The notes under the pieces are model-generated. The model made no database searches and was not told the DNA's origin. It saw nothing but the letters and a program-made list of their open reading frames with translations. From an uncultured Oscillospiraceae bacterium (GTDB lineage: Bacteria; Bacillota; Clostridia; Oscillospirales; Oscillospiraceae), in contig CANRFN010000018.1 in NCBI GenBank assembly GCA_947629915.1, positions 1-64,000 on the forward strand: a stretch of 64,000 nucleotides of DNA, given 5' to 3'. This document shows positions 19,715 through 37,687 of the stretch, in pieces (positions within the stretch are counted from its first letter, which is position 1; every line of letters starts with the position of its first letter). Position numbers and translations under genes: made by a program.

Positions 19715-19743
19715 AGTATACCCCGGACGGAGAAAACCGTCAA
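19715..19743 (-). promoter_or_regulatory. Promoter of the csbB-yfhO operon
   Basis: On the minus strand, -35 TTGACG (19738-19743), a 17-base spacer and -10 TATACT (19715-19720) lie 39 bases upstream of the GTG start. Confidence 0.82.
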
Positions 19744-19910: not shown

Positions 19911-19966
19911 CTCAAAATAAGGCCCTTTTCAGGGCGCCGCAGGAACGGAACGCCGTGAAAAGGGCC
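19911..19966 (-). terminator. Terminator of the paralogue/MoxR/VWA operon
   Basis: On the minus strand an 11-base stem GGCCCTTTTCA/TGAAAAGGGCC, extended by further pairs past one mismatch (19921-19966), is followed by TTATTTTG. It lies about 245 bases after the VWA stop. Confidence 0.7.
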
Positions 19967-20209
19967 GTAATTTGCTGTATTTGGTTTTAGCTTGTAAAGT
20001 TCCGATTTCATCGTATTTCCGATCATTTCTGTCATTATGCAGGATCGAATATTTCAAATTCAGGCATGTGCTTTCAAAGTGTAAACCAAGGCACGAGCCC
20101 CTGTCTGACAGTCTCAAAACCGTGATGCTACGATCTGAGACGATCTGCAACGGTTTGCAAACTGCCGGCAAAGCCTCCTGAGCGCTCTGTTCCGCAGGCA
20201 AACGCCACC
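19967..20209. other. A/T-rich operon tail
   Basis: This 243-base stretch between the VWA stop and the terminator holds no gene I can support. It may be an unusually long 3' untranslated region, or the remains of another operon member. Confidence 0.4.
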
Positions 20210-21796
20210 TCAGTGCTGCCCGGCCCGGAGCAGAAATTCCAGCAGATCCCCCACATGTTTGCCCTCGTAGGCGGCGGCTCCGGCGGCGATATAGGCCCCC
20301 ATCACCGAGTCTCCGGTGTCCCACAGCCTTCTGGGCTCCGGGTTCAGCCAGTAGACGCCGGCACACCGGTCTCGGAGGTATCGAAGGTCCCCCGCCCCGG
20401 TGGGATTGCGGTTGTTTCGGGCATCTCCCAGGAGGATGAGGGTAGTGTCCCGGTGAAAGCCGGCGCCATATCGCCTGCGCAGCTGGGCAAGGACGGTGCC
20501 GTAATCGGAGTAGACGCCCCGGGTGGGGATGTGCTCCAACACCGCCTGCACCCCCGCCTCTGGGGATACCTCCCGGAAATAGAGATCCACCGGGTACAGG
20601 TCCTTCACAAAGGCGAACTTCCGGCAGCCCCCGGGAAAGGCGGCGTCCATCAGCGCGGTAAAGAAGAGGGCCAGCACGGCGGTGTTCTGGCAGGATCCCG
20701 AGAGATCTGCCAGGAGCACCACATGGGCGCGGCTCTTCCGGGGTTTCCGATACCGCAGCACCAGCGGCTCTCCCCCGTGTCGGGCCGCCGCCCGCAAGGT
20801 CCCCCGCAGGTCCAGATGGCGCCGCCCGGCGGCGCTGTCTCTCTGCCGCAGGGTCTGGCGGAACACCCTGGCGTTGGCCCGGATGTACGCCAAGATCCGC
20901 TTCTGGGTCTCCGGGTCCATGTGCTGCAGCTCCACCTGAAGCAGCGCCGCCATCTCCGCCGTGGTCTGGACAGCCCCCAGGCTCCCCTGAAAGAGGGACC
21001 GGTGTATCAGCGAGCCGTCTTTCACGGTGAGGGAATCCCGCTGCGCGGTAAAGCTGCGGGCGTCTTCTGCGGCCTGGGTGAGCCAGCGGGCGGTCTCCCC
21101 CGCCCGCTGAAGCCGCACCTGCAGGGAGGCCACAGATGCTTCCAGCTGTTTTGCCCGGGCCTCGGGGTCCTCCCGGGGCAGCGTCAGACGGCCCAGCGCC
21201 GCCGCCAGGTTCAAAAGCTGGGCATAGCAAGGCGTCTGCTGCCAGCGCACCGCAGCGGTGAGCACCTCCCGCCGGATTGCCTCCAGTGTGTGAACATCGC
21301 CCTTTGCCTCCCGGACCCGGATCTCCCACTTGGCCGCCGGGATCCGCAGCTTCTCCTGCCGTGCGGTCTCCAGTAGCTGCGCCAAGAGCTCCAGGATATG
21401 CTGCAGCCGTGGGTCTTCTGTCACTGCGGGCAAGACAGAGGGCTGCTGGCCATATGCCTGCATCCGCTCCAGTTCCCCCTGGGTCCAGGCCAGCCGCTCC
21501 TCCAGGGCAGTCCGAGCGTTCTCCCCCGCCGCGGCCTCCTGCGCCCGCCGGGCAGCCGCACTGAGGCGGCCCGGCACGGGGAGCTGGAGCAGCTTCTCCG
21601 CAAAGAGGGTCTGGAAGATCTCCCGCTCCGTCTCTGAGGTGCACACCGCAGACTGCATGCGGTAGAAGACCTCCTCCAGATCGGTAATCTCCCTGGCACA
21701 GGACAGTGCCAGGGAGAGCTTGTCCAGTTCCAGGTCGAAGGCGTACTGCTCCCGAAGTTCCAGCAGAAACGCCAGCACTTGCCCCAGGGCGATCAC
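20210..21796 (-). CDS. CoxE-like VWA-domain protein
   Basis: A 528-aa last gene of the paralogue operon. The first 340 residues are helical, with a coiled-coil-prone stretch around residues 80-120. The C-terminal VWA domain has its metal-binding MIDAS motif DLSGS at residues 364-368 and a later TLILLGDARNN strand. It starts with GTG overlapping the MoxR stop by 4 bases (GTGA), so the two proteins are translationally coupled and probably act together. MoxR-VWA pairs act as ATP-driven chaperones or remodelling machines on a dedicated client; the upstream paralogues are the obvious candidates. Confidence 0.88.
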   Translation of the reverse strand: MIALGQVLAFLLELREQYAFDLELDKLSLALSCAREITDLEEVFYRMQSAVCTSETEREIFQTLFAEKLLQLPVPGRLSAAARRAQEAAAGENARTALEERLAWTQGELERMQAYGQQPSVLPAVTEDPRLQHILELLAQLLETARQEKLRIPAAKWEIRVREAKGDVHTLEAIRREVLTAAVRWQQTPCYAQLLNLAAALGRLTLPREDPEARAKQLEASVASLQVRLQRAGETARWLTQAAEDARSFTAQRDSLTVKDGSLIHRSLFQGSLGAVQTTAEMAALLQVELQHMDPETQKRILAYIRANARVFRQTLRQRDSAAGRRHLDLRGTLRAAARHGGEPLVLRYRKPRKSRAHVVLLADLSGSCQNTAVLALFFTALMDAAFPGGCRKFAFVKDLYPVDLYFREVSPEAGVQAVLEHIPTRGVYSDYGTVLAQLRRRYGAGFHRDTTLILLGDARNNRNPTGAGDLRYLRDRCAGVYWLNPEPRRLWDTGDSVMGAYIAAGAAAYEGKHVGDLLEFLLRAGQH

Positions 21797-22695
21797 TGGG
21801 ACACCTTGAAGATCCGCGAGAGAATTTGCCGCCGGTCTGCGTTGTCCTTGGCCAGCAGGCCGATGGAGTACGGGGCCATGTCCAGGATGCCCGTCTCGTC
21901 CGTCTTCCCGCTCTGGAGCAGGAACCGGGCCCAGTCCAGGCCCTCGCTGATGCTCACCGGGTGCTGCAGATCCAGGTTGCCGATCTGCACCAGGTAGTCT
22001 GCCACCCGGGCGCAGAAGGCGTTGTCCTGGGACACCCGGGACAGCAGGATCTGCTGGATCTCCTGCCGGGACTTCCTATCGATGAAGAGATAGAAGCAGC
22101 GGCGCTTCAAGGCGCCGGACAGCTCCCGATACCGGTTGGAGGTGAGGATCACCACCGGCATGTCCTCCGGGGCGCAGCGGATGGTGCCCAGCTCCGGGAT
22201 GGTGATGGCGAAGTCGGACAGCGCCTCCAAGAGGGTGTGCTCGATCTCCTCGCTGGCCTTGTCTATCTCGTCGATGAGCAGCACCTTCCGCCCCGGGCTG
22301 TGCAGCGCCTTCAGGATGGGCCGCTCCAGGAGGAAGTCCTCCCCAAAGAACCGCACATTCTTGGCCGCGTAGTCCACGCAGCCCGGGATGTCCATGTCCC
22401 GCATGGCATCGTTGAGCCGGTCCCGGATGGCGGACACCACCAGCAGCTGGCGCTGGTAGTCGTACTCATAGAGGATGGACTCCGGGCTGATCCCCTCATA
22501 GCACTGCAGCCGGATGAGGGGGACGTTCAGCGCCTGGGCCAAAGCCCCTGCCAGGCTGCTCTTGCCCACGCCGGGAGCGCCTTCCACCAACAGCGGGCGG
22601 TTGGTCTCCATGGCCCCCAAAAGGGCATAGCCGATCTGCTTGTTCGCGAAGTATCCGGCGCTCTCCAGGCCGGTGATCAATTCTTCTACCTGCAT
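21793..22695 (-). CDS. MoxR-family AAA+ ATPase
   Basis: A 300-aa ATPase. Walker A GAPGVGKSS lies at residues 39-47, Walker B VLLIDEIDKA near 137, and sensor 1 VILTSNRYRELSGAL with an arginine-finger region KRRCFYLFID follows. Length and motifs are those of MoxR/RavA-type ATPases. It is encoded between the divergent paralogue (78 bases upstream) and the VWA gene (4-base overlap), so it is cotranscribed with both. It probably hydrolyses ATP to remodel complexes formed by the VWA protein and one or more paralogues. Confidence 0.93.
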   Translation of the reverse strand: MQVEELITGLESAGYFANKQIGYALLGAMETNRPLLVEGAPGVGKSSLAGALAQALNVPLIRLQCYEGISPESILYEYDYQRQLLVVSAIRDRLNDAMRDMDIPGCVDYAAKNVRFFGEDFLLERPILKALHSPGRKVLLIDEIDKASEEIEHTLLEALSDFAITIPELGTIRCAPEDMPVVILTSNRYRELSGALKRRCFYLFIDRKSRQEIQQILLSRVSQDNAFCARVADYLVQIGNLDLQHPVSISEGLDWARFLLQSGKTDETGILDMAPYSIGLLAKDNADRRQILSRIFKVSQ

Positions 22696-22773
22696 AATCT
22701 ACTCTACTCTCCTCTGTTCCGTTTCTTTGTTCTGCTACAGGTGCTCCGCCCCAGGCGGACACCAGTGTCTGTC

Positions 22774-24489
22774 TTACAATTGCTCTCCTCCGGAATACCC
22801 TCTTCCCGCGAGTTTCACCAGATCCGGGTTGACGCCATCGAGGGAAAATGCCAACTGTCTGGTGAAGCCGTTGTACACATACTGGCGATCAATCACCGGT
22901 GTCTCCCCATCTCCAGCCGGCACCAGCGTGCGGCGCAGTTTATTCAGAGCCTGCAACACCTCATCCTCATCCATGCCGAGAGATTCAGTCATCATCTCGA
23001 TCTGGGCATCGGGGTGCTCTGCCACATACTTCAGGACAGACAGATCATCGGCACCCAAGCCATTGAGCACCTGCAGCTGCTGCACACCCAGATTATCCTC
23101 GCGCCGTATCATACGGCAGATCCCTTTGATCAGCTGCTGCAGCGTTTCCTGCAGTCCCTCGCCTGTGTACTTTTGCTTTGACACAAACGTCACGCGCTCC
23201 CATCTGTGCTCCGAAACATACCGCGGGCCATAGGAAATCGCGGGGTATGAGCCGCCCGCTTCGATGGTCACTCCAATGGCCGCAGCCACATCCAGCTCCG
23301 GCAATTTCCGTTCTCTCCCCTGGAGTGCCGCCTGCAGTGCCTGCTGGAAGGCCTCCGCCAAATGCCACCACCCGAGCAGATCTGCGGGCAGGCGTTGGAT
23401 CTGGCACAGTGGCACTGCCGGCGCTTGTAAATTCTCCACCTTCAAGGGAAGGACATAGTTGTCCACCAGGTTGCAATGGTCTCCCGGCACTTTGGGATAG
23501 CGGATCTTTCCCCGGTCCTTTTCCGGCTGCCAGAACACCAAGCCGGTGGGATAGCTCTTTCTCTCCCAGGACACCGATACCATCCCCAGAGGGGATTTTC
23601 CCGTTTTCAGCAGGGTGCTCAATCCGGGCGGCATGCCCGGCAGCGCATCCAGAGACGGAGCGGTGCAGATCAGCGGTACCGGAACAGCCTCCGTCAGCAA
23701 AGAGGTCATACTCTCACGAATTGCCGGCTGAAGATAGGCCTGTTGCGCCCTCCTGGTGGTATAGAACGGGCATTGCCCCACCGGGAAAGCCGCTTTTCCC
23801 TGCCAGTACAGTCCACCCTCCAGCAGAGCCCGCAGGGTAACCTGGCAATGGGAGCGGTCCTGATACTCGATTTCACACCCAGCCTCCAGGGAGACGATCT
23901 GTGCCGGTGCAAAGCCAGGCAAGCGGCGAGCCCTCGCGATGCGGTCTCGGTATGCATCGCTCCATGCAGCCCGGATCTTCTGAATCTGTCCCTGCAGTTC
24001 CGCATCTTCCTGCAGCGTTCTCTGCGCCAGCCGCTTCAGCGCAGAGGAGTCCCAATATCGTTTCGTTGGGTCCAGGATTCTCTCCGGGGTGAGCCACTGC
24101 GCCAGAGAGGCCGCCGAATTTCGCACCATCTCCTGCAGGCTGTCCCTGTAAAACTGGATCAGATGATCCGCACTCTCCACAGCTCGCCAATTCGGCCTCA
24201 GCTGGACCACACCGGTGTATCTGTCCGAGACCGCTACAAAGTCGATGAATACAGACGTCACAATGGACAATCCCTGTTTCTCCCTCTGCACATACAGGGA
24301 TACCTCTCCCATCTGCGGCTCAGGGCAATCGGGATCCCAATGCAGCAAAGGCTCCTTGATCACTTCTGTGGCGATCTGCTGCAGCATCCGGTATTGCGCA
24401 GGCTCTTCTACCTGTTCCTGCAGCGCAATCGCGGCCTTCGCCACCCAACGGTGTTTGTCCTCCAGCGGAACACTTCTCTTGTATGCCAC
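22774..24489 (-). CDS. Divergent last paralogue of the array (copy 8)
   Basis: A 571-aa protein, the most diverged copy and the one next to MoxR. GTG 24489 is chosen because AGGAG lies 8 bases upstream; a longer frame would overlap copy 7. It keeps the N-terminal WDPDCPEP version of the family WDPNC motif, the FAPAQIVSLEAGCEI version of the central cysteine motif, TAPSLDALPGM, and a winged-helix-like stretch (LGADDLSVLKYVAEH). It lacks the RWTRFNEAL...LPGCKRLAAKLWPEE tail and ends GYSGGEQL. I recognise no named family. It may be the core partner of MoxR/VWA and the others variable duplicates. Confidence 0.75.
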   Translation of the reverse strand: MAYKRSVPLEDKHRWVAKAAIALQEQVEEPAQYRMLQQIATEVIKEPLLHWDPDCPEPQMGEVSLYVQREKQGLSIVTSVFIDFVAVSDRYTGVVQLRPNWRAVESADHLIQFYRDSLQEMVRNSAASLAQWLTPERILDPTKRYWDSSALKRLAQRTLQEDAELQGQIQKIRAAWSDAYRDRIARARRLPGFAPAQIVSLEAGCEIEYQDRSHCQVTLRALLEGGLYWQGKAAFPVGQCPFYTTRRAQQAYLQPAIRESMTSLLTEAVPVPLICTAPSLDALPGMPPGLSTLLKTGKSPLGMVSVSWERKSYPTGLVFWQPEKDRGKIRYPKVPGDHCNLVDNYVLPLKVENLQAPAVPLCQIQRLPADLLGWWHLAEAFQQALQAALQGRERKLPELDVAAAIGVTIEAGGSYPAISYGPRYVSEHRWERVTFVSKQKYTGEGLQETLQQLIKGICRMIRREDNLGVQQLQVLNGLGADDLSVLKYVAEHPDAQIEMMTESLGMDEDEVLQALNKLRRTLVPAGDGETPVIDRQYVYNGFTRQLAFSLDGVNPDLVKLAGRGYSGGEQL

Positions 24490-24500
24490 AAGTTCATCTC

Positions 24501-26372
24501 CTATTCTTTTTCCGGCCACAGTTTGTCCGCCAGCCGCTTGCATCCCGGCAGTCCCTCTACTGTGAGGCGGACAAACACGGCGTCATCCCCGGAGAAGCTC
24601 TGCAGGAACGCCTGTCCCTCGTCACTCTTGGCAAAGGACGCGAGGAAGGTGCTGGGCATGCACTCCAGCGCCTCGTTGAACCGGGTCCAACGCTGCTCCT
24701 CCGGCGCCTCCAGAAGATAGCGGGTGAACCACTTCCCCCGCTCCGCCGGCTTCATGTGCTCCACATCCGCCGCCTCAAAGGGCTTTCCTGTGGCCTCATC
24801 CAGCACATCGTGATCGATCTGTCCCCCCATGCCATACATGCGGAAGGCATCGTGTTTCCGGCTATCAACCCAGCGCACCGCCACCAACGGCTTCCTGTCC
24901 CCGTCTATAAGGATCTCCACTTTTGTGAGATGCTCCAGGCATGTCCCGGTATAGACCTTGGTTGTGCACACCAGACCGTCAATCGCACTGGCCAAGGCGC
25001 TGTACCAGGTCTCCCCATTGGCGGCAATGTACCGCAGGACCGCCAGCTCTGTGGGATTCAAGGTGTTGAGCACCTTCAGCTGTGCCCTCTTCTCATACGG
25101 CTTCGCCCGCTCGGCCAGGCAGATCTGTTCCATAAGTTCCTGCAATGTGCCCTCGTCATCTCTCTCCGGTGGGTCCAGCAGGACGTCTATAGTCCTCCAG
25201 ACGAAGTGCAGCCTGCGCTTTCTGTCCATCACCAGGAGCACCGCGGGCGCATCCACATTTTGCTCCAGGGCCGCCTTCTCCAGAGATGCCCAGATGGACT
25301 CACCAAACCGGAAGACGCCCACCATATCCGTAGGCAGCGTCTTGTACGCCCGCAAAGGAACCAATGGCTGTTCCAGAAGTCCCGGATACAGCTGCAAAGC
25401 GGGACACTCTGAGATGGGCCGCCCAGAGGTGCGCAGCCGCACTTTCTTCCGGTCCCGCTCCGGCCGATACAGCAGGAGGGCATCTTCCACGGGCCCTCTT
25501 TTCCACTGCACCGTGACACACCCCAGCGAGGCCTCCCCCTGCAGCAGGAAGGTCTCCAGGGGTTCCGACATGCCGTGGAAATCACGGAGAGACGGGCAGG
25601 TGTACAGCAGCGGGACCTCGTTCACCTGCCGCAACAGGGACCCCAGATTCTCCTTGATATACCCAAAGAGCACCTCTCGCCGTCTCTCCGGGCTGGGGTA
25701 GAAATAGCAGTAGTGGAGGTCAAAAGACACCTCATTTTGGCTGTATCCGCCGCGGTCCATGCAGACCCGCAGAACGCACTTGCCAACGTTGGCATCCGCA
25801 CTGCACCTCAGCTCCAGGGAGGCAATCTGCGCCGGCTGAAATCCCTGGGGGCAGCGGCTCTTCGCCAGCCGCCGCTCATAGTCTCTCCGAATGGCGGTCT
25901 CCTTCTCTCTCAGCATTCTCCGCACATCCGGGTATCTCTCCATCTCGTGGGCGACCCGATCCAGCCGCTTCTTGCACAGTGTGGCGGTGTACCGGATCAC
26001 CTCTTCCTCCGTGGCGGGCAGTTCCATCCGGGCGCATGCATCCTGCAGCAGCTGCGGGAGGAGCGCCCGAAACTGCTGCGTGAGCGCCTCTTCCGTCCCG
26101 TTGGTATCCCCGCGAAACGGCATGCTGGCCTTGCCGGTGTAGTACTTGGAGAGCCCATCGAACTGGACGTCTACCTGCGCCGTAAGCTCCACTTGCAGGT
26201 TGCGCATGCTGAGAAAGAAGCGCACCTCATCCACTTTCGGCAGCAGGAACTCCGGATTCCAGATTCCTGCGAAGTGCTGATTCACCCTCGTCTCAAACTG
26301 CTGGGAGTACTCCGGAGACGCCGTCAGCTCTTTCTCCAGCTTTAAGAGCACCTGTTTTGACATCCTGGACAC
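24501..26372 (-). CDS. Array paralogue, copy 7
   Basis: A 623-aa soluble protein of unknown function, starting at GTG 26372 with GAGAGGGG about 7 bases upstream. Family layout: an N-terminal domain with HFAGIWNPE (variant of HFxxxWDPNC) and VQFDGLSKYYTG; a helical linker; the central motif FQPAQIASLELRCSA; TCPSLRDFHGM; and a winged-helix-like segment at residues 438-500 (LNPTELAVLRYI, VCTTKVYTGTCLEHL). The tail over residues 560-623 is near-identical to copy 6. No signal peptide or membrane segment is visible. It lies 11 bases before copy 8 and 45 after copy 6. Confidence 0.8.
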   Translation of the reverse strand: MSRMSKQVLLKLEKELTASPEYSQQFETRVNQHFAGIWNPEFLLPKVDEVRFFLSMRNLQVELTAQVDVQFDGLSKYYTGKASMPFRGDTNGTEEALTQQFRALLPQLLQDACARMELPATEEEVIRYTATLCKKRLDRVAHEMERYPDVRRMLREKETAIRRDYERRLAKSRCPQGFQPAQIASLELRCSADANVGKCVLRVCMDRGGYSQNEVSFDLHYCYFYPSPERRREVLFGYIKENLGSLLRQVNEVPLLYTCPSLRDFHGMSEPLETFLLQGEASLGCVTVQWKRGPVEDALLLYRPERDRKKVRLRTSGRPISECPALQLYPGLLEQPLVPLRAYKTLPTDMVGVFRFGESIWASLEKAALEQNVDAPAVLLVMDRKRRLHFVWRTIDVLLDPPERDDEGTLQELMEQICLAERAKPYEKRAQLKVLNTLNPTELAVLRYIAANGETWYSALASAIDGLVCTTKVYTGTCLEHLTKVEILIDGDRKPLVAVRWVDSRKHDAFRMYGMGGQIDHDVLDEATGKPFEAADVEHMKPAERGKWFTRYLLEAPEEQRWTRFNEALECMPSTFLASFAKSDEGQAFLQSFSGDDAVFVRLTVEGLPGCKRLADKLWPEKE

Positions 26373-26417
26373 GCTTTTTCCCCTCTCTCGAAGCAGGAAA
26401 GGCCCCCCTTTCCGCGC

Positions 26418-28313
26418 TCAGCTCTTCTCTTCCGGCCACAGCTTGGCCGCTAGCCGCTTGCACCCTGGCAGGCCTTCCACCGTGAGGCGGACAAACACTG
26501 CGTCATCCCCGGTAAAGCACTTGAGAAAGGCCTGCCCCTCATCGCTCTTGGCAAAGGCCGCGAGGAAGGTGCTGGGCATGCGGTCCAGCGCCTCATTGAA
26601 CCGGGTCCAGCGCTGCTTCCCGTTTGCCTGTAGCAGGTACTGGGTGAACCACGGTCCCCGCTGTGCCTGCTTAATGTTCTCCACATCAGCACCCGAAAAA
26701 GGTCTGGCAATGGCTCTTTCCAGCACATCAAGCTCGATCTTGGCCTCCATGTCATAGATGCGGAACATGCCGTGGTACCCGTCTGCCAGCCGGTACCGCA
26801 GCAAGTGCATCATTTTGCCAGCCACTGGCACCTCAATTTCCGTGAGGCGATCCAGACAGGCACCGGTATAGGCCTTGGTGGTGATCACCTGATCTGCCAG
26901 GTCGTCCGCCAGCGCACTGTACCACGTCTCACCATTGGCCGCAATGTGCCGCAGCACCGCCAGTTCTGTGGGGTTCAGGCTGTTCAACACCTGGATTTGG
27001 GCCTGTCTCTCCTGGGGCTTGTTCGCCTCTGCCTGGTAGATGCGATCCACAATCTTCTGAACCGCGCTCCCCACAGCATTCTCAGACGGATCCAGATGCA
27101 ACTCCAGCGAACTCCAGGTGATGGTGATCTGGAACTTGCTGTCTGCAGACAACCACACAGGCTGGGAAGGCATCTCTTTTCCCTGGAACGCCGTCTCCAT
27201 GGCCGCTTTCATGGCCTCCGCCAGCCGGAAGTAGCTCACCGGGTTCTGGGGCATGTCCGCAATCTCAGCCAGCGGAACTGCCGGCTGCTGCAGCAGGGAC
27301 AGGGGCAGAGGCGCTACAGGGCACTCCGAAAAGGCGTGATTCTCCCGGTACAGGCGCACCTTGTCGCTGCCCGGCTGATACAGCAAGACGGCGTCCTGCA
27401 TCACTCGGCTGGTCCACTGCACTTTCACGCATCCCAAAGTGACGAATCGCTTCTGGAGCAGCTCCTGGAGGGCATCGGACATGCCGGGAAGCTCCCCGAG
27501 GTTGGAACACATGTACAGCGGCGTCACCCGGGCCGCCCGCTTCAAAAGAGATTCCACACACTTCTGAATGCGGGCATCCAGAAGCGCGAACTTCTTCTCC
27601 CGGTCCGCAAGGAAACAGCAGTCCAGAATGTCAAAGGAGGCAGCGATCTGGGTGTAGACTCCGTTGTCCATGTTGACGTCCAGCCAGCACTTGCCGCTGT
27701 CCGAGGGAACCCTGCAGTGCAGGTCCAGGGAGGCGATGTGCACAGGATGGAATCCCTGCGGGCACTTGATGCTGGCCAGCCGCTCCTCATAGGCGGCCTG
27801 AACAGCCGGCTTTCTCTCCTCCACCAGTGTCAGCGTATCCGTGTCAATCTCCACATTGTGTGCCAGCGTATCCATCCGGTCCTGGAAACAGCGCAGATTG
27901 GAGCGCAGGACATCCTCCGCGTTTTTCGGGAGTACGCTGTTCAATTTGTCCCGGGCCTGCTCCGTCAGCTGCGGCAGCAGTGTCCGGATCTGCTGGTCCA
28001 TTTGTTCTCTGGACGGGAAGTTGCCCCAGGTCAGCGGTGCGCTTGCCGTTCCCCTGTACCGCTCCGTCCATCCGTCAAACTGCACCTCGGCCTCCGCGGC
28101 CAACTGGATCTCATCGCCTTGCCCGGTGAGCTCGAAGCGCACAGCCTTAGACTGGGGCACCTTGTATTCCGGGTTCCAGATCTCCTGAAAATTCCGGTTC
28201 ACAACAGCCGTGATCTCCTGCGTGTAGACGCCAGGCCCCGACATCTCGCTCTGAAGTTTAGCCAGCAGATTCTTTTTCATCGAATGGTGCTTCTTTTTCT
28301 TCTCGTGGGACAC
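26418..28313 (-). CDS. Array paralogue, copy 6
   Basis: A 631-aa protein starting at GTG 28313 with GAGGAGAG upstream. It opens with a lysine/histidine-rich VSHEKKKKHHS peptide before the family N-terminal domain (WNPEYKVP, VQFDGWTERYRG). The central motif is FHPVHIASLDLHC. The winged-helix-like segment LNPTELAVLRHI, VITTKAYTGACLDRL is conserved. The tail is nearly identical to copy 7 (RWTRFNEALDRMPSTFLAAF), which suggests recent duplication or gene conversion. No recognised family; cytosolic. Confidence 0.8.
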   Translation of the reverse strand: MSHEKKKKHHSMKKNLLAKLQSEMSGPGVYTQEITAVVNRNFQEIWNPEYKVPQSKAVRFELTGQGDEIQLAAEAEVQFDGWTERYRGTASAPLTWGNFPSREQMDQQIRTLLPQLTEQARDKLNSVLPKNAEDVLRSNLRCFQDRMDTLAHNVEIDTDTLTLVEERKPAVQAAYEERLASIKCPQGFHPVHIASLDLHCRVPSDSGKCWLDVNMDNGVYTQIAASFDILDCCFLADREKKFALLDARIQKCVESLLKRAARVTPLYMCSNLGELPGMSDALQELLQKRFVTLGCVKVQWTSRVMQDAVLLYQPGSDKVRLYRENHAFSECPVAPLPLSLLQQPAVPLAEIADMPQNPVSYFRLAEAMKAAMETAFQGKEMPSQPVWLSADSKFQITITWSSLELHLDPSENAVGSAVQKIVDRIYQAEANKPQERQAQIQVLNSLNPTELAVLRHIAANGETWYSALADDLADQVITTKAYTGACLDRLTEIEVPVAGKMMHLLRYRLADGYHGMFRIYDMEAKIELDVLERAIARPFSGADVENIKQAQRGPWFTQYLLQANGKQRWTRFNEALDRMPSTFLAAFAKSDEGQAFLKCFTGDDAVFVRLTVEGLPGCKRLAAKLWPEEKS

Positions 28314-28354
28314 AGTTCTCTCTCCTCTCTCGCCCGCCTTACGGTCCCCGTTTT

Positions 28355-30250
28355 CTACTCTTCTCCGTCTTTCCCTTCTGCCTCGCCTGGCCACAGCTTT
28401 GCTGCCAGCCGTTTGCAGCCAGGCAGTTCCTCCACCGTGAGGCGGACAAACATGGCCTCAGGCCCAGTAAAGCCCTTGAGAAATGTCTGTCCCGCTTCGC
28501 TCTTCGCAAAGGTGGTGAGAAACGTGCGGGGCATATAGTCCAGCGCCTCATTGAAGCGAGCCCAGCGCTGTTCGCCGTCTGCCTCCAGAAGATAGCCGGT
28601 GAACCAATCCCCCCGTGCAGCCGGTTTCATCTTCCCCACTTCAGACGCCCGGAAAGGCCTGCCGGTAGCAGACTCCAGCAATTTTCGGTCTATGTCGAGG
28701 TCAAAGCAGTACATGAGGCATTCATCGTACGCATCGTTGAAGCCCCAATAAACCTCCAGGAGCGGCTTGTAGCCTCCCTTTACCGGCATATATTCCACAG
28801 CAAGATTCTCTAGGCACTCGCCGGTATACGATTTCATGGTACACACCTGTCCATCGATCTCATCGGCCAACTCCGCACACCAGGTTTCCCCGTTTTTCGA
28901 GATGTGCCGCAGGATCGCCAGTTCTGTGGGGTTCAGGCCGTTTAACACCGCCAGCTGCCGATTTCGAAAAGCCGCTTTCGCCTCTTCCTCCGCGACAGAC
29001 TGTGTCGCAAGCCGCATTATTCTCTGCCCTGTGGACATCTCACCCGTACCTAGCGCCAGATTCTTGGATCCGCAATGAAGCTGCAGGCTGCAATCTTTGG
29101 CCAGTTGCAGCACCATATTCGGTATCGACACATCCTTGTCCAGGAGCATCTGGTTCAAGGTCTGCTCCAGCGCCTCTCCCAACCGGAAGAAACCGGCGAT
29201 CTCCGTTGGCAGCGCTGTATACTCCAGCGGGGGTACCGGCTGCTCACGCGTATCCAGGCAAATAGGCCCGTCCCGGCATTTGGAAATGCTTGTTCCGCAG
29301 CTTCCAATCCGCACGATATCTTTGTCCGGCTGCAGCCGATACAGAATGCATGCACTCTCTTGGCGGTCTTTCGTTCTCCTCAGGGTAACATGTCCCAGTG
29401 AGACGCTTCCCTGCTGCAGCAAGCTTTCCAGCTGGTCGGTCATACCAGGGACGGCTTGGAAAGACGTAGCAACGAACACAGGCGCAATCCCATCTGTCGG
29501 CATCACAAGGTCCTTCAAAGACTCCAGAATTTGAGACAGGAGGTATTCCCGTTTTTTGCCCTCATCGATATAGAATGGGCAGTATCCCAGGTCATACTCC
29601 TTCCGCCTCTCGAAATACATGCCGCAGTCCAGGTGAATCCGCAGTATGCATGTACCAATGTAGCCTTCGGTACTGCAGTACAATTTCAACGAGGCAATAT
29701 GTACCGGCATAAATCCCTGGGGACACGGTGCATTTTCCAAGAGGCTCTCATAAGTACTCTGAAACACCTTGGTTCGCTTGTCCAGGATCGACAGCATGCC
29801 CGGATCCTCCGCAATCCTTGTCGCTATGGAGTCGAGGTCAGGATGATTGCTCGCCATGTGCTTTCTGAAGAAATTCTCCGAGCTTTGCGGCAGCGACTTA
29901 TGGACCTTGTCGATCAGCGCCTGCTCCAGGGACAGCAGAGCCTGGCGGTTTGGCTCGATCAGTTCTTCTACCGTCTTACCGCTGTCCAAGACCAACGAGG
30001 TGCGCTCCGTTACCGTGTAGGTCACGGATGCCCCCGCACTTTCCACACGGATCACAGCGGTCAGAATGATCCGCTTGTCGTCACAATTGAGAACACTCTC
30101 CACCTCATTCACATGCGGTTTCATGCAGTTCGGATCCCATACTGCCGCAAAATGTGACTCCGCCGCTGCCTTAACTGCCTTGGGATACTCGGCAGAAACT
30201 TGCAGTTCACTCCGCAGTTCATCTATCACGGACTTGTGCTTTTTGCCCAA
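28355..30250 (-). CDS. Array paralogue, copy 5
   Basis: A 631-aa protein. Two in-frame ATGs (30259, 30256) and a TTG (30250) are possible starts. The TTG is chosen because GAAGGG lies 9 bases upstream and because it aligns with the TTG start of copy 4 (both begin Gly-Lys-Lys). N-terminal WDPNCMKP, the central motif FMPVHIASLKLYC, the winged-helix-like LNPTELAILRHI and the tail MPRTFLTTFAKSEAGQ are conserved. Copies 4 and 5 form a subgroup by N-terminus and tail. Function unknown. Confidence 0.77.
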   Translation of the reverse strand: MGKKHKSVIDELRSELQVSAEYPKAVKAAAESHFAAVWDPNCMKPHVNEVESVLNCDDKRIILTAVIRVESAGASVTYTVTERTSLVLDSGKTVEELIEPNRQALLSLEQALIDKVHKSLPQSSENFFRKHMASNHPDLDSIATRIAEDPGMLSILDKRTKVFQSTYESLLENAPCPQGFMPVHIASLKLYCSTEGYIGTCILRIHLDCGMYFERRKEYDLGYCPFYIDEGKKREYLLSQILESLKDLVMPTDGIAPVFVATSFQAVPGMTDQLESLLQQGSVSLGHVTLRRTKDRQESACILYRLQPDKDIVRIGSCGTSISKCRDGPICLDTREQPVPPLEYTALPTEIAGFFRLGEALEQTLNQMLLDKDVSIPNMVLQLAKDCSLQLHCGSKNLALGTGEMSTGQRIMRLATQSVAEEEAKAAFRNRQLAVLNGLNPTELAILRHISKNGETWCAELADEIDGQVCTMKSYTGECLENLAVEYMPVKGGYKPLLEVYWGFNDAYDECLMYCFDLDIDRKLLESATGRPFRASEVGKMKPAARGDWFTGYLLEADGEQRWARFNEALDYMPRTFLTTFAKSEAGQTFLKGFTGPEAMFVRLTVEELPGCKRLAAKLWPGEAEGKDGEE

Positions 30251-30291
30251 CGCCATCATCCCTTCTGCGGCAGTCCTGCGCTGGCAGCCTG

Positions 30292-32217
30292 CTACTTTTC
30301 TCCGCTCTTCACTTCCTCCGGCCACAGCTTCGCCGCCAGCCGCTTACAGCCCGGCAGTTCCTCCACCGTGAGGCGGACAAACATGGCCTCGGAGCCAGTG
30401 AATTTACGGAGGAACCCCTGCCCCGCCTCACTCTTTGCAAACTCGGTGAGAAACGTGCGGGGCATACGGTCCAGCGCCTCATTGAACCGGGTCCAACGCT
30501 GTTCGTCATCCGCTTCCAGAAGGTAGTTGGTAAACCACTTTGCCCGCTCCGCCGGCTTCATGTTCTCCACATCTGCCGGTCCGAACGGTCTGCCGGCAAC
30601 AGCGTCCAGAATTGCCCTCTCGATGTTGGCCCCAGCGCTGTACATGAGAAAATCGTCATGCTTTCTGCTGTATGTCCACTGCGCACGCAATAAGGACCTC
30701 TCCGCGCCGTCCACCGGCACTTTCAGCTCCGCAAGGCGTTTCAAGCATGCACCGGTGTAGACTTTGGTGGTACACACCTGGTCTTCTATCGCCCCTGCCA
30801 GGGCAGTATACCAGATCTCCCCGTGGGCAGTGATGTACCGCAGGACGGCCAATTCTGTGGGATTCAGGGCGTTCAGCACTTCCAGCTGCCGCTGTCTTTC
30901 CAAGGGCTTCGCAGACGCGATTGCAGCCGCTTGGGTCAAAAACTGCATCAGCTTCGGCCCAGCTGCCGTTTCTCTCTGGTCCAGCGTGATACTCTTGCCT
31001 CCGCATGTGAGGCAAAGTTGGGAGTGCTTTTTCAGCTGCAGCACCATCTGCAGCGCAGGCACTTCTCTCCCCTGAAACATCTGGCCCAGTGCTTCTTCGA
31101 TGGTCTCTCCCAGCTGGCAATAGCCAGCCGCATCCTGCGGTGGCACCGTGTACTGCTCCAGGGGAATCGCAGGCTGCTCCAGGACAGCAAGGGAAATCGG
31201 CAGGATAGGGCAGAAATACGGCTCCACTTTCCCTGTTTCGCGGCGCAGTTTTCCACTGCTTTGTTTGGGGAGGTACAGTACCGGTTCGTTCTCATAGCAG
31301 ATGCCTTTCCACTTCACCGTAACATGGTCCAAGGAGACCGTCCCAGTCTCGGCCAAGGTCTCCAGATGCTCTGTCGTGCCAGGGAGGTCCCGCAGAGATG
31401 GGGCAATAAACAGCGGCGGAATCTCGCCCACTTGTTTCACAAGGCGTTTGACGCACGTCAGGATATGTGCCTGAAGGTATTCCCGCTGTCTCTCCTCTTC
31501 GGTGTAGAAAGGGCAGTATCCCAGGTCATACGTTTCCTCCCTTTTAAAGCAGCTACCGCTGTCCAGCCCAATCTGCAATACACATTTACCAGCGTCTCCG
31601 GAGGTAAAGCAGCGCAGCTGCAGCGATGTAATGTCTGCGGGTCTGAATCCTGCGGGACATGGAACCTTTGCTAGCCGGTCTCTATAGGTGTTCTGAAAGG
31701 CCGGCTTTCTCTCCTCCAAGATTGCCAGCACATCCGGCTGCTTTGCGATTTCCTCCGCTATGGCATCAAGTTTCGGATGGCTTTTTTCCATGTACTTTCC
31801 GTAGAGTTCCTCCGTGCTCTGCGGCAGCTTCTGGCAGAACACTGCCGCCAGAGACTGCTCCAGGGGCGGCAGGGCAAGGCGGATTTGCTGCGTGAATTTC
31901 TCCTCTGTGGTGCCAGCACTCCAGTCCATCCTGGTACGTGCGGTTTCTGTGAAGGGAAGGGATGTCCCAGCACACTCCATTTGGACGGTTGCGGACAGAA
32001 TGAGCTCTTTTGCCGACCGGTTGAGCGTCATCATCATTCTGCTGACCTGCGGCTGCGTATAGTCCGAATTCTGCATTCCGGCTAAGTGTTTCTCTACCGC
32101 TGCAACAATCTCAGGAGCGCCTTGCGCAGACTCTCGCACTTCTTTCTGCAGCGCCACAAACACGCGTTTCTGCATTTCGCTCACCGGACTTTTCTGTTGT
32201 TTGTTCTTCTTGCCCAA
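30292..32217 (-). CDS. Array paralogue, copy 4
   Basis: A 641-aa protein starting at TTG 32217 with GAAGGGA about 8 bases upstream. The N-terminal domain is diverged (the WDPNC tryptophan motif reads MQNSDYTQP), so the motif is not essential in every copy. The central motif FRPADITSLQLRCFT, the winged-helix-like LNPTELAVLRYI, VCTTKVYTGACLKRL and the tail MPRTFLTEFAKSEAGQ are well kept. It lies 56 bases after the broken copy 3. Function unknown. Confidence 0.78.
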   Translation of the reverse strand: MGKKNKQQKSPVSEMQKRVFVALQKEVRESAQGAPEIVAAVEKHLAGMQNSDYTQPQVSRMMMTLNRSAKELILSATVQMECAGTSLPFTETARTRMDWSAGTTEEKFTQQIRLALPPLEQSLAAVFCQKLPQSTEELYGKYMEKSHPKLDAIAEEIAKQPDVLAILEERKPAFQNTYRDRLAKVPCPAGFRPADITSLQLRCFTSGDAGKCVLQIGLDSGSCFKREETYDLGYCPFYTEEERQREYLQAHILTCVKRLVKQVGEIPPLFIAPSLRDLPGTTEHLETLAETGTVSLDHVTVKWKGICYENEPVLYLPKQSSGKLRRETGKVEPYFCPILPISLAVLEQPAIPLEQYTVPPQDAAGYCQLGETIEEALGQMFQGREVPALQMVLQLKKHSQLCLTCGGKSITLDQRETAAGPKLMQFLTQAAAIASAKPLERQRQLEVLNALNPTELAVLRYITAHGEIWYTALAGAIEDQVCTTKVYTGACLKRLAELKVPVDGAERSLLRAQWTYSRKHDDFLMYSAGANIERAILDAVAGRPFGPADVENMKPAERAKWFTNYLLEADDEQRWTRFNEALDRMPRTFLTEFAKSEAGQGFLRKFTGSEAMFVRLTVEELPGCKRLAAKLWPEEVKSGEK

Positions 32218-32273
32218 GATTCTCTTCCCTTCTGCATCTGTTCTGGATCAGCAGGCCTGCCTCTCTTCTTATC

Positions 32274-33358
32274 CTATTCCTCATCCGGCCACAGCCGCGC
32301 CGCCACCCGCATACAGCCCGGCAAGCTCTCTATCGTGAGGCGAACAAACATGGCCTCTGCCCCCATAAAGTGCCGAAGGAATTCCTGCCCTGTCTCGCTC
32401 TTCACTAATTTCACGAGAGAGGTGCCGGGCATATAATCCAGTACTGCGTTGAATCAGCTCCAGCGCTGGTCTCCCTCTGCCTCGAGGAGATAGTGGTTGA
32501 ACCACGTTCTCCGCAATGCCGGCTTGATGAACTTCGCTTCTGCCGGTTCATAGGGACGGCCAACAGCCCTTAGCAGCACGTCGATGCCCATTTTAGCACA
32601 AACAGCGTACATGCGGTAGCCTCCACCGCGGCGATTTCGCACCATTTGGCCGCTGAGAAGAGGCACTTCCTCGCCATCCACCGGCACTCTCACTTCTTGA
32701 GGCGTTCCAGACAGGCACCGTTATAGGCTTTCGTGGTACACACCTGGTCCGCCAAAGCACTTGCCGCTGCACTGATGCTGGTCTCCCCTTTCTGCGTGAC
32801 ATACCGCAGTACAGCCATCTCGGTGGTATTCAGGCTGTCCAACACCTCCAGCTGCCGCTGCTTTTCAGCGGGTCTGCCCTCCTCTACCCGATAGATCTGA
32901 TGCACCAGTACCATCAGGACCTTTCCCGGGGTTTTACGGGACGTCCACAGCTGTATGGTCTTCTCCGAAGGCAAGCCTGCTGTCATTTGGCCCCCTGCAC
33001 ATTGCAGCAGCTGTGGCAGAATCGCTCGGATCTGCTTCTCCAATTCTTCTGCTGTACGGCTCTGATCCCATGCAAACGGCTTGCTGACCTTTCCTACATA
33101 GCACTTCTTCCACCCATCGAACTGAATGATGGCCCTCGCTTTCAATGTGATATTGCCGCCATTTCTCGAAAGCGCGAAAGTCACTTGCTCTGCTTTCGGT
33201 GCCATGCAGTTGGGGTCCCACTTCTCAGTGAAGTGTTGATTCACGGGTTGGATGATCTGCTGGCAATACTCGTCCGCCCTGTCCATCTCAAGCCGTAGCT
33301 GATGCAGCACACTCTGCTGCATCCCTGTTGGCTGGTTTCCTTTGTTCTTCTTGGACAT
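32274..33358 (-). pseudogene. Broken array paralogue, copy 3
   Basis: A degenerate paralogue with three lesions. First, an internal deletion of roughly 250 codons joins the N-terminal domain (WDPNCMAPKAEQVTF, then PSEKTIQ) straight to LWTSRKTPGK and the segment before the winged helix. Second, a 1-base deletion near 32690 shifts the frame just after ACLERLKK. Third, a TGA replaces the conserved Arg of RWTRFNEAL at about 32455. Beyond it the tail VRLTIESLPGC is still readable to a TAG at 32274. The ATG at 33358 keeps a ribosome binding site. Confidence 0.88.
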
Positions 33359-33393
33359 GGCTCTCCCCCGCTCTACTCCGCAAGACAGGTTTG

Positions 33394-35304
33394 CTACGCC
33401 TTCCCGGCTTTTCCATCGCACTCTTCCGGCCACAGCTTCGCCGCCAGCCGCTTGCACCCCGGCAGCGCCTCCACCGTCAGGCGGACAAACACGGCTTCAT
33501 CCCCAGTGAATCTCCGGAGAAACGCTTGTCCCGCCTCGCTTTTCGCAAAGTCGGCCAGGAACGTGCGGGGCATATCGTCCAGAGCTTCGCCAAAACGCGT
33601 CCAACGCTGTGCATCATCTGCGCCCAGGAGATAGTCTGTGAACCACCTTTCGCGCTGAGGCGGTATCAGGTTCGCGGCCTCAGCTGCCGTATAGGGTCTG
33701 CCTGCAGCGGAAGCCAGCACCTCCTGTGTTAGGCTGGCTCCAACGCGGTACAGGCATTTGTCTTCTGCTGCCGTACGGACCCGCAGCAGGGGCGCCATGT
33801 GGCCATCCACCGGTACTTCCATCTCTGTAAGGTGCCGGAGACATGCGCTGACATAGGCTTTCACGGCACTTTCCTGTACTTCAACCACATCAGGCAACGC
33901 AGTCTCCCCATTTGCCGTGATGTACCGCAGGACATAGAGCTCCGTGGGATTCAGCGCATTCAGCGCTTTCAGCTGCGCCTGTCTTTCACCGGGCCTGGTC
34001 TTCTCTGCCCGGCAGATCTGATGTACAAGTTCCTGCAGAAACGTCCCTGGGGGATTCTGGGATCCGCACAGCGGAAAACTGTCAGTACCGCAGCGGAGCG
34101 TGAGGCGATACCGCTCATCTGCCTGCAGCTGCACCGATGAAAACGGTGCCTTCCTGCCCAGAAGCGTCTGATTGATTGCCTTCCGCAGCGATGCTCCCAA
34201 CTGGTAGAGCTCCACCGGACTCTGCGGCCACGCGGCGACATCCCCCAAGGGAACCCGCGGATGCTGCAAAAGTTCCAGGTTCAGGAGTACCGCGGGCCAG
34301 TCCGAGATCGCCTCGTTCTTCGTCCCATAGCGCACCTTCCCGCTGTCCAGCGCGGGCTGATACAGCACTGGGCCTCCCTTGTACCGCGGCCCGCCCCAAT
34401 GCACCGTAACACACCCCAGAGATGTGGCGCCCTTCTGAAGCAAGGTCTCAATCGGCTCCGTCATGTCGCGAAGAGCGTGGAGTGATGGCGCTGCATACAG
34501 CAGCGGAACTGGGATCAGTCCGTCCAAAAGGGTCTTCGCACCCTTCCGCATGCGGCGATAGAGTGCATCCCGCTGTTTCTCCGGGTTTTTGTAGAAGGCA
34601 TAGCGGATGACATCGATGAGGATCTTCTTCTGGCTGGTGCTTCCATTGTCCATGCAGATCAGCAGGGCAGCATCCACGTAGCCGGCATGGCAAGTACATC
34701 TCAGGTCCAGAGAGGAGATGTGCACCGGGCGGAACCCCGGAGGGCACGGTGTGCTATCCATCCGCCTCTCATAGTCCGCCTGGACAGCAGGCAGTTTCGC
34801 CTTCAACATCGCCGTGAGTCGCACATCTTTCGCCAGATCCCGCACCACCCGATACAGCTGCTTCGGGTCTGGTACACTGCTCACATGGGCACGCAGTTCC
34901 TCCTCCATGTTCGAAGGCAGGGATGACATGATTCTCGCGCCGGCGCGTCGTACCAGAAGAAGCAGAATGATCCGATACTTCTCCTTCGTCTCTTCCGATG
35001 TTGGGCACTCATCCCACGGGAAAGGCACACTGGCCTGTCCGCTGTACCACTTCTGCCATCCATCGAACTGGACGGACACTTTCCCCTCCAGCGTGAGATC
35101 CCCGTCTTCCCTTGCGAGTCGAAACCACACCTGCGCCACGTTCGGCACCATGCAGTTGGGATCCCATCTCTTGCGGAAATGCTGGTTCACAGGCTTGATG
35201 ATCTCCTGACGGTACTCGTCCGATCCCTCTATCTCGTGTCTCAGCAGCTGCAATATGCTCTGCTGCGTCTCCGTTTTGCCGATCTCTTGGCTGTTTTCGG
35301 ACAT
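33394..35304 (-). CDS. Array paralogue, copy 2
   Basis: A 636-aa protein starting at ATG 35304 with GGAAGGGGGG upstream. N-terminal HFRKRWDPNCMVP and VQFDGWQKWYSG, the central FRPVHISSLDLRCTC, APSLHALRDM, the winged-helix-like LNPTELYVLRYI and a complete tail RLTVEALPGCKRLAAKL are all present. Copies 1, 2 and 3 share the clearest WDPNC motif. It lies 35 bases upstream of copy 3 and 40 downstream of copy 1. No known family; predicted soluble. Confidence 0.8.
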   Translation of the reverse strand: MSENSQEIGKTETQQSILQLLRHEIEGSDEYRQEIIKPVNQHFRKRWDPNCMVPNVAQVWFRLAREDGDLTLEGKVSVQFDGWQKWYSGQASVPFPWDECPTSEETKEKYRIILLLLVRRAGARIMSSLPSNMEEELRAHVSSVPDPKQLYRVVRDLAKDVRLTAMLKAKLPAVQADYERRMDSTPCPPGFRPVHISSLDLRCTCHAGYVDAALLICMDNGSTSQKKILIDVIRYAFYKNPEKQRDALYRRMRKGAKTLLDGLIPVPLLYAAPSLHALRDMTEPIETLLQKGATSLGCVTVHWGGPRYKGGPVLYQPALDSGKVRYGTKNEAISDWPAVLLNLELLQHPRVPLGDVAAWPQSPVELYQLGASLRKAINQTLLGRKAPFSSVQLQADERYRLTLRCGTDSFPLCGSQNPPGTFLQELVHQICRAEKTRPGERQAQLKALNALNPTELYVLRYITANGETALPDVVEVQESAVKAYVSACLRHLTEMEVPVDGHMAPLLRVRTAAEDKCLYRVGASLTQEVLASAAGRPYTAAEAANLIPPQRERWFTDYLLGADDAQRWTRFGEALDDMPRTFLADFAKSEAGQAFLRRFTGDEAVFVRLTVEALPGCKRLAAKLWPEECDGKAGKA

Positions 35305-35344
35305 AGCCTTCCCCCCTTCCGCCTGAATCGCTCCGGCCGCTCTG

Positions 35345-37249
35345 CTACACTTCCCCGCCCTTGCCCTCGTCCTCGTCCGGCCACAGCTTCGCCGCCAGCC
35401 GTTTGCACCCCGGCAGCGACTCCACCGTCAAGCGGGCAAACATGGCATCCGATCCCTTGAACCCCCGGAGAAATGCCTGCCCCTCCTCGGTCATAACAAA
35501 CGCCTTCAGGAAAGCTCTGTCCATGCAGTCCAGGGCCTCGTTGAAACGGGTCCACCGCTGCCCCTCATCCGCCTCGAGGAGATAGCGGGTAAACCACTTT
35601 CCCCGCGCTTTCGGCTTCATCCTCTCCAGGTCTGCCGGCGTGAGGGGGCGCCCCACAGCGGCCTGCAGCACCTCGGGCTCGATCAGGGCCGCAGCGCTGT
35701 ATTTGTAGAACCAGTTGTAGTAGCTGTACACTTCCCGGGTACGCAGAAGCGGCGCCGCTTTGCCTTCCACTGGTACTTCCACCTCAGTGAGGTGCTTCAG
35801 GCACGTCTGCGTATACGGTTTGGGCGTGTACACCTGTTTATCGATGGCATTGGCCAATTTCGTGTAATAGGTCTCCCCGTGTTCCGTGACATACCGCAGC
35901 ACCGTCAGCTCCGTGGGGTCCAGGCTGTTCAGCACTTTCCACTGTGCCTCCCTCTCCGCGGGCCGGGCGGTCTCATCCCGAAAGATCCGCTCTGCGATCC
36001 TCTGCAAAGCCATCTCAAAACTTTCCTCGGATGTATCCAGCGCCGCTTTTCTGGTGCTCCAGAGCAGCACCGCCAAGTGGAGCTTCTTGTCCGCCAGCAG
36101 CTTTACCGAAGGCACAGGCACCCCGGTGCCCTGAAAGGTCTTCTCCAGGATCTCCTGCAGGGATTCGCCCACGCGGCAGACCCCAGGCAGATCCTGGGGC
36201 AAGGCCTCCCAATCACGAGAGGCGTCCCGCGGCTGCGCCAGAAGGTCCGGGTACAGCGGCACAGCGGGGCAGTTCAAGATCCCTTCTCCGTCCCTGCCAA
36301 AGCGTACTTTTCCTCTGTCCTGCCTGGGCTGATACAGCAAGGGGCCCGCTCCAAACTGCGGTCCGTCCCACTGCACCGTGACACATCCCAGGGAGACGGC
36401 TCCCTGTTCCAGCAAGGTCTGCAGTCTGTCCGTCATGCCAGGGAGATTCCGGAGAGAGAAAGCCGTGTACAGCAGCGGAACCCGGACAGCCCGCTGCAAA
36501 AGGATCTCCACACTGTCTTTGGCCTGGGAATAGAGTGCCTCCACCCGTTTCACCGGATCCACATAGAAGGCACAGCAACCGGGAGCAAAGTCGATCTTCT
36601 TTTCGCTGTGTACCCCGTTGTCCATGCGGATCAGCAGTGCGATCTCCCAGCGCTCACAGCCAGCCTTGCAGCGCAGTGCCAGAGAGGCAATGTGCGCCGG
36701 CTGAAATCCCACTGGGCAAGGTGTCTTTGCTAGCTGCGCCTCATAGGCGGCCTGGATAGCAGGTCTCTTCTCGTCTAACATCGCCACCAAACCCGGGTGG
36801 GATGCCAACGCTCTCTCGGTCTGCCCGAACTCGTCCAGGTGAAGCCGAACCCTCCAGCGCAGCTCCTCCATCATCTTCACAGGCAGCCGCGATTCCAAGT
36901 CCGCGCCAACATCCTCTACCAACTGCGGCAGAATCGCTCGGATCTGCGCTTTGAGTTCTTCTGCCGTCCGGTAGTCCGACCATGCAAAGCGCACCTCAGA
37001 CCTGCCCCAATATTCGGTCTTCCAGTAGGCAGACTGCGCATCTGTGTTCACGCGGAGAACCACAAAGCCGCCCTCCCTGTAGAGGTCGAACTTCACAGAC
37101 AGTACTTCCGGCACACAGTTGGGATCCCACTTCTCGGCGAAAAACCGGTCGATGCGCTGTGTGATCAGAGCGCGATACTTCCCCGTCTCGCTCTCCTCAT
37201 CGAGCAGCTGCTTCATCACCAGCCGCTCCAGATCAGACCCATGGTACAT
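35345..37249 (-). CDS. Array paralogue, copy 1 (promoter-proximal)
   Basis: A 634-aa first gene of the operon. ATG 37249 has GGGGGGAG 6 bases upstream, 70 bases after the -10 box; an in-frame codon 54 bases earlier has no such support. It contains FFAEKWDPNCVPE, the central FQPAHIASLALRCKA, the winged-helix-like LDPTELTVLRYV, VYTPKPYTQTCLKHL, and the tail MDRAFLKAF then RLTVESLPGCKRL. No signal peptide, membrane segment or catalytic motif can be recognised. Its role is inferred only from the shared operon with MoxR and VWA. Confidence 0.8.
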   Translation of the reverse strand: MYHGSDLERLVMKQLLDEESETGKYRALITQRIDRFFAEKWDPNCVPEVLSVKFDLYREGGFVVLRVNTDAQSAYWKTEYWGRSEVRFAWSDYRTAEELKAQIRAILPQLVEDVGADLESRLPVKMMEELRWRVRLHLDEFGQTERALASHPGLVAMLDEKRPAIQAAYEAQLAKTPCPVGFQPAHIASLALRCKAGCERWEIALLIRMDNGVHSEKKIDFAPGCCAFYVDPVKRVEALYSQAKDSVEILLQRAVRVPLLYTAFSLRNLPGMTDRLQTLLEQGAVSLGCVTVQWDGPQFGAGPLLYQPRQDRGKVRFGRDGEGILNCPAVPLYPDLLAQPRDASRDWEALPQDLPGVCRVGESLQEILEKTFQGTGVPVPSVKLLADKKLHLAVLLWSTRKAALDTSEESFEMALQRIAERIFRDETARPAEREAQWKVLNSLDPTELTVLRYVTEHGETYYTKLANAIDKQVYTPKPYTQTCLKHLTEVEVPVEGKAAPLLRTREVYSYYNWFYKYSAAALIEPEVLQAAVGRPLTPADLERMKPKARGKWFTRYLLEADEGQRWTRFNEALDCMDRAFLKAFVMTEEGQAFLRGFKGSDAMFARLTVESLPGCKRLAAKLWPDEDEGKGGEV

Positions 37250-37318
37250 GTCCAACTCCCCCCTTCCCCACAAGGCCTGTGCTGCATCTTCTGCAGCCCC
37301 CAAGACAGGCCAGCGCTT

Positions 37319-37347
37319 ATTTTACTCTCGTGGATTGACGATGTCAA
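37319..37347 (-). promoter_or_regulatory. Strong promoter with overlapping palindrome for the array operon
   Basis: On the minus strand, -35 TTGACA (37342-37347), a spacer of exactly 17 bases and -10 TAAAAT (37319-37324). The 13-base palindrome TTGAC-GAT-GTCAA (37335-37347, plus-strand reading) covers the -35 box and could be a repressor operator. No regulator gene is adjacent. Confidence 0.85.
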
Positions 37348-37687
37348 CCCATTTTTGTAATTTTTCCGACAGTTTTTTCGTGTCGGAGTCCTTGGCATTT
37401 TCCAGAAATGGAGGATTCACCTTCATCGTCTTCCACAGCACTATTCAATTGCATGCTAGGCATCCGCAGATCTTTTCACGCTCCTTCCAACCCACCAGGC
37501 AAGGCACAATTTGCACTATCTTTACATCATTTTTGCAGTTTCTCTCTTGTTATTCCCAGAGTTCTCGGGTATTCTGTCCCACAGAGGCAGTCAGATTCTA
37601 GCGTTTTCATGCTCTCTCCCCGGGGAGCACAGCATTTTCCAGCTCTGCCAATTCGGTCACTTCAAGCCACGATAGGAGGCACCATCT
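37348..37687. other. A/T-rich intergenic region between divergent genes
   Basis: About 340 bases between the array promoter and the membrane-anchored protein. It is clearly richer in A and T than the flanks. I see no RNA gene or supported small frame; any promoter for the gene at 37688 must lie here, but none is close to consensus. Confidence 0.5.

Follow-up and report, generated by a model that had tools for sequence, protein, structure and literature searches.

Most of what is known of MoxR–VWA motors concerns chaperones that serve a single client, or predicted conflict switches in which each motor has one partner. Pairs of the CoxD/CoxE type act on an enzyme client. In NorQ/NorD, activity depends on the MIDAS of the VWA protein, which has been proposed to attach to an acidic patch of the target, and the MoxR ring provides ATP-driven force (PMC9976466). 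In the predicted VMAP ternary conflict systems, the gene for the third component is followed by those for MoxR and vWA (Kaur et al. 2020, PMC7159879), and the iSTAND ternary systems of the same study have an inactive STAND NTPase as their third component. In a further group of ternary sensors, a component coupled to MoxR and proposed to act in recognition is diversified by error-prone retroelements (DGRs) acting on C-type lectin domains (PMC10907252). The locus described here resembles the CoxD/CoxE and NorQ/NorD chaperones in its MoxR and VWA types (a VWA_CoxE domain, intact motifs and adjacent genes), but the operon has no Mo-hydroxylase and instead carries an array of duplicated partners. 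No description of such a tandem partner array was found in the limited literature searched.

The locus lies within a 64,000-nucleotide stretch of DNA from a gut bacterium (the window). On its minus strand, from 37303 to 20210, ten collinear genes encode eight paralogues (P1–P8), then a MoxR ATPase, then a CoxE-type VWA protein. They are preceded by a sigma-70-type promoter (TTGACA-17-TAAAAT; 37319..37347, minus strand) that matches the consensus at 11 of 12 positions, is the top site within 19600–38300, and precedes the likely start codon of P1 by some 70 bases. Several mechanically drawn open reading frame starts are too early. P1 was drawn at 35345..37303, with its true start likely at the ATG at 37249, after GGGGGGAG; P5, at 28355..30325, likely starts near 30259, and P6, at 26418..28394, at a GTG near 28313. 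P2 (33394..35304) encodes 636 residues, P4 (30292..32217) 641 and P7 (24501..26372) 623, while P3 (32265..33358) is a pseudogene. The divergent P8 (22774..24489) had its start set at GTG 24489 by comparison with a congener. The 300-residue, CoxD-like MoxR (21793..22695) and the 528-residue VWA protein (20210..21796) complete the series, all on the minus strand. The preliminary description had proposed a one-promoter operon of paralogues, a MoxR ATPase and a CoxE-like VWA protein, with a smallest gap of 11 bases. The collinear genes, the near-perfect promoter, the short gaps and the 4-base overlap (GTGA) at the MoxR/VWA junction bear this out, as do the Pfam matches of the two motor proteins given below, and 11 bases is indeed the distance between P7 and P8 once the latter starts at its GTG.

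Pairwise identity is 37–47% among P1, P2 and P4–P7, and P8 is 25–30% identical to those six; judged from these alignments, the paralogy of P1–P8 is far beyond chance. P3 is decaying: about 270 codons are missing internally, three-frame translation shows the remainder to be frameshifted with an in-frame TGA, and the profile pieces 13–144, 418–509 and 506–647 fall in different frames. Of the seven full-length-type partners and one divergent copy initially counted, the divergent P8 stands, but with P3 a pseudogene, six rather than seven are intact full-length genes. Those partners had also been said to lack any recognizable domain name. Searches of the paralogues against Pfam, NCBIfam and PADLOC returned nothing above noise and placed them in no family, housekeeping or other; PADLOC defence models at E 1 and a PDB sequence search likewise gave no match. 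The partner family is thus new to the protein libraries searched.

The copies differ most in their bodies and least at their ends. Among the six intact copies, identity is 29–39% in the body segments and 50% in the winged helix. It reaches 67% in the C-terminal domain, whose last helix is 90% identical. The constant helical domain (24504..24821, minus strand, in P7, with a mean identity of 67% over residues 521–615) ends in LPGCKRLA(A/D)KLWP and is common to P1–P7, including the remnant in the pseudogene P3, and to the solo paralogues described below; P8 is without it. Why has this tail remained so constant? Recent gene conversion was considered and ruled out, because the tail retains a dS of at least 0.74. 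Median dS is 0.88–1.43 in every segment, and such high values throughout indicate that the tail has been kept by purifying selection rather than by recent homogenization. A VMAP-C, EAD or death-like domain was also considered as the identity of the tail and rejected, as a Pfam search at E 10 returned nothing. No comparison gave a gene-wide dN/dS of 1 or above; the values are 0.4–0.5 between copies and 0.21–0.46 between species (P7, S1, S2 and P8, with P8 at 0.45 and the others at no more than 0.46), so that positive selection is not demonstrated. The body of the array copies is diversified, and copies arise and die, P3 being the dying example. The earlier suggestion of a component diversified by duplication agrees with these varied bodies on a constant tail, with the birth and death of copies, and with the divergent P8 slot.

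Structure prediction had been called for on the eighth copy and was carried out on P8 and also on P7. In the AlphaFold2 models of P7 (mean pLDDT 87) and P8 (81), a large body of repeated α-βββ-α modules is followed by a winged helix; a helical bundle at the C terminus is found in the P7 model only, and there is none in that of P8. In hhalign comparisons, body modules 1 and 2 matched with E 0.0016, compared to at least 0.1 for other module pairs, and there is mild support for an origin of these two modules by internal duplication. With whole P7 and P8 chains, Foldseek gave no match below E 0.001. The best PDB matches of P8 were tandem dsRBDs (Loquacious, E 4.8e-3), with a Foldseek probability of 0.25 and low TM-scores. 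The presence of dsRNA-binding domains in the paralogues was rejected on the basis of the low probability and TM-scores, the failure of P7 to reproduce the match strongly, and the lack of a dsRBD signature by eye; the likeness of the P8 model is kept as a weak lead. The winged helix, predicted in P7 (residues 436–520) and in P8, is the sole part of these models with a clear fold match, being MarR/PadR/ORC-like. VIA-align Z scores reach 10.7 (95 residues, 2.5 Å rmsd), and a further match scored 10.3 (90 residues, 4.3 Å).

A winged helix of this type in both models might mean that the array is one of regulators, that is, DNA-binding proteins with differing sensory bodies that are disassembled or activated by the MoxR–VWA pair. 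Different operators would require varied recognition helices, but the recognition-helix region is 59% conserved and among the better-kept parts of the paralogues. Moreover, the net charge of the winged helix is 0 to −10 in P1–P7 and −8 in P8, and reaches +1 only in the solo paralogue S1 and the P8 of the congener. With almost every copy either uncharged overall or acidic in this domain, contact with protein is suggested more than binding to DNA. Conservation and charge together are evidence against regulators with differing DNA sites, and although binding at a shared site would still be compatible with them, a regulator array seems unlikely.

The motor itself is of the CoxD/CoxE type. The MoxR protein matches Pfam AAA_5 (E 5e-15), with Walker A (residue 39) and Walker B (residue 139) intact. 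The VWA protein matches VWA_CoxE (E 1e-28) over residues 314–510 of 528, with no domain after it, and its MIDAS is intact: DxSGS, a serine in the threonine position as in some relatives, and the aspartate. The best NCBIfam matches were to the MadB/MadC families (NF047784, NF047783; E 2e-61 for MoxR and 2.5e-24 for the VWA protein), at scores far under the curated cut-offs (208 of 475 bits and 86 of 600 bits, respectively); the limited literature searched yielded no paper on either family. PADLOC gave only weak generic AAA matches for MoxR. The MoxR protein is 40–48% identical to CoxD-like MoxR proteins. Such relatives are widespread in Firmicutes, with 37 of 300 family genomes and 79 of 398 phylum genomes carrying them, and they also occur on plasmids, where one is annotated as CO dehydrogenase subunit D. 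About 31 related MoxR–VWA loci were inspected. All were bare two-gene pairs, with no relative of the paralogues and no third component, and their upstream neighbours, where identified, were unrelated genes.

Could the operon simply encode an ordinary CoxD/CoxE cofactor-insertion pair that serves a Mo-hydroxylase elsewhere, the paralogues being passengers or accessory chaperones? Apart from the similarity to CoxD-like proteins (40–43% identity), the operon MoxR is the only clear MoxR of its type in the genome, and the genome has two unlinked Mo-hydroxylases (PF02738 matches on other contigs). On the other hand, a Mo-hydroxylase is present in 22 of 42 genus members and this VWA protein in only two of them, which leaves twenty others with the enzyme and without a VWA match; for three near-complete genomes among these (G001, G011 and G018), a MoxR search at E 1e-25 found no match either. 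These counts weaken the explanation. The operon, furthermore, contains no Mo-hydroxylase gene, and P8, MoxR and VWA are found together in both genomes that carry the family. We regard a role purely in Mo-hydroxylase maturation as distinctly improbable.

The second of these genomes, an uncultured Oscillospiraceae MAG (CANQII01, isolate Lapin-030 bin 59), is the only other one with the family among 99 relatives, 42 genus genomes and 398 phylum genomes, and two short peptide patterns searched against 84,980 species representatives led to no genome beyond this congener. The distribution thus rests on two genomes, the congener being 74% complete, with an array that ends at a contig end inside P7. 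Its locus is syntenic, with the same downstream genes on one side and the contig end on the other. The gene order of paralogue, MoxR and VWA, which the preliminary description had proposed to look for in other genomes, was found in this one congener; rather than lacking any link to MoxR and VWA elsewhere, the partner family lies beside them in a second genome. The flanks of the operon are chromosomal. A mobile-element or phage origin was considered and rejected: P7 had no match in plasmids, neither P7 nor P8 in phages, and neither A3 nor P8 in viral contigs. As to genome size, G000 measures 5.78 Mb, compared to 1.7–3.8 Mb for nearly all other congeners examined.

Both genomes also harbor two solo paralogues (S1 and S2) and a solo VWA gene (V2), none with an adjoining MoxR where the surroundings are readable, which shows that the link to MoxR is not obligatory gene by gene. 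The S2 gene of the congener seems to be split over two contigs, with an N-terminal part that runs into unrelated sequence (L030, 1414–2868) and a C-terminal part (L022, 136–723); this may be a disruption or a misassembly. Four related open reading frames of 212–365 residues, lying one after another, adjoin the solo paralogues (L020, 371–6066, minus strand) and have the look, by eye, of a tandem family of the Rpn/PD-(D/E)XK type; one of them was scanned against Pfam and had no good match.

The comparison with the congener is most informative at P8. Identity is 97% for MoxR, 94% for the flanking glycosyltransferase, 86% for P7 (over 357 aligned residues) and 83% for VWA, but only 43% for P8. At the nucleotide level, identity is 0.89 up to the P7 stop, about 0.55 beyond it, and 0.95 again from the MoxR start. 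Synonymous divergence follows the same pattern, with a dS of 1.13 [0.93–1.47] for P8 against 0.19 for MoxR, 0.33 for the glycosyltransferase, 0.35 for P7, 0.46 for YfhO and 0.58 for VWA. The P8 proteins of the two genomes group as a single clade in the tree, yet their branches match those of P1, P2 and P6 in length. Since the divergence extends to synonymous sites, fast evolution of a single P8 orthologue is less likely. The simplest reading of these sequences is replacement of the P8 slot, or else a different sorting of old alternative copies in the two species. The middle region of the VWA protein (residues 91–265) is 71% identical to that of the congener, against 89–90% at its ends, and a changeable middle region would fit contact with a replaced P8.

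Differential sorting of old duplicates would also be the source of the P8 difference if the array were a product of neutral or selfish tandem duplication without any recognition role. The decay of P3, the scattered solo copies and the dN/dS values between copies and between species are all in line with that explanation. However, six copies have stayed open despite a dS of about 1 or more, and hence have been selected for; constraint on the tail is strong; and the P8 difference stops exactly at the gene borders. Purely neutral expansion is considered improbable.

How, then, does the operon relate to the ternary systems? It shares with the VMAP systems a MoxR, a vWA and a third component without a known enzymatic fold, in the order P8, MoxR, VWA in both genomes, and here too the third component and the vWA evolve faster than MoxR. 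However, a Pfam search of 14 family members at E 0.5, a comparison at the level of sequence families, returned nothing VMAP-like. The MoxR lacks an N-terminal extension with aromatic motifs, for which Walker A at residue 39 of 300 leaves little room. The vWA is of the CoxE type and ends the protein, with no effector domains C-terminal to it and no EAD match. Finally, the third component is duplicated to an array, and it is this tandem array of partners that sets the operon apart. The operon thus resembles the VMAP ternary systems in layout and order but fails their testable defining features; it could plausibly operate in a similar manner, but we do not classify it as one. The iSTAND systems are similar in having a MoxR without extensions and a CoxE-type vWA with an extra N-terminal region; here, the third component has α-β3-α modules and a winged helix in the models, and no STAND or P-loop match was found in Pfam or, for P7 and P8, in Foldseek, although a diverged STAND core could have escaped such searches. 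With the DGR-diversified sensors, the operon would share a diversified recognition component, but one varied, as we propose, by gene duplication and replacement.

The explanation we favor, tentatively and at slightly less than even chances, is that a CoxD/CoxE-type motor was recruited, in one small Oscillospiraceae lineage, to a lineage-specific partner family that is diversifying by duplication, decay and replacement. P8 would stand where a dedicated third component is expected in a set of partner, MoxR and VWA, with P1–P7 as its duplicated relatives. Following the logic of NorQ/NorD, in which the MIDAS is proposed to bind the target and MoxR gives the force, a MoxR hexamer with its VWA adaptor would engage P8, the constant C-terminal domains, or both, and ATP would be used to assemble, release or remodel whichever paralogue had bound a target via its variable body. 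The tail would then be a docking handle and the body the recognition part, in a repertoire changed by duplication, by decay (as in P3) and by replacement of P8. The physical complex, the assignment of tail and body, replacement as the origin of the P8 divergence, and any part in conflict or defence are what we infer. More specifically, the operon might couple an AAA+ MoxR–VWA motor to a tandem array of receptor-like proteins, variable in their bodies but alike in a tail used for docking, with duplication and core-subunit exchange, not a mutagenic retroelement, as the source of diversity; this stronger version is possible, though doubtful. An immune role, as the preliminary description suggested, is a plausible hypothesis with indirect support, and no effector domain or nuclease was recognizable in the operon proteins. 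One motor with seven intact partners would extend the MoxR–VWA kind and offer a tractable way to test how such a motor can read a range of related clients via a constant tail. If the partners do recognize invaders, the locus would exemplify, in bacteria, receptors diversified through the duplication of genes.

Within the window, defence-like genes come no closer than 4 kb to the operon. An AbiLi-like AAA_21 ATPase (14975–16243, minus strand; PADLOC E 4e-57) is found about 4 kb downstream. A possible Ssp/Dnd-like cluster (55228–63942, minus strand), which reaches the window end, has a 1403-residue SspC-like protein, a DUF4007/SspB-like protein and a DndH/SspH/HerA-like protein; beside it, at 53089–55028, are an S24 peptidase/HTH repressor-like protein and a small sigma-70 region 4 protein. 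Transposase-looking proteins occur both near the operon (574 residues, 38208–39932, plus strand, without a Pfam match) and near the solo VWA locus (561 residues, L096, 741–2426, plus strand), and the two are alike by eye in their N-terminal motifs.
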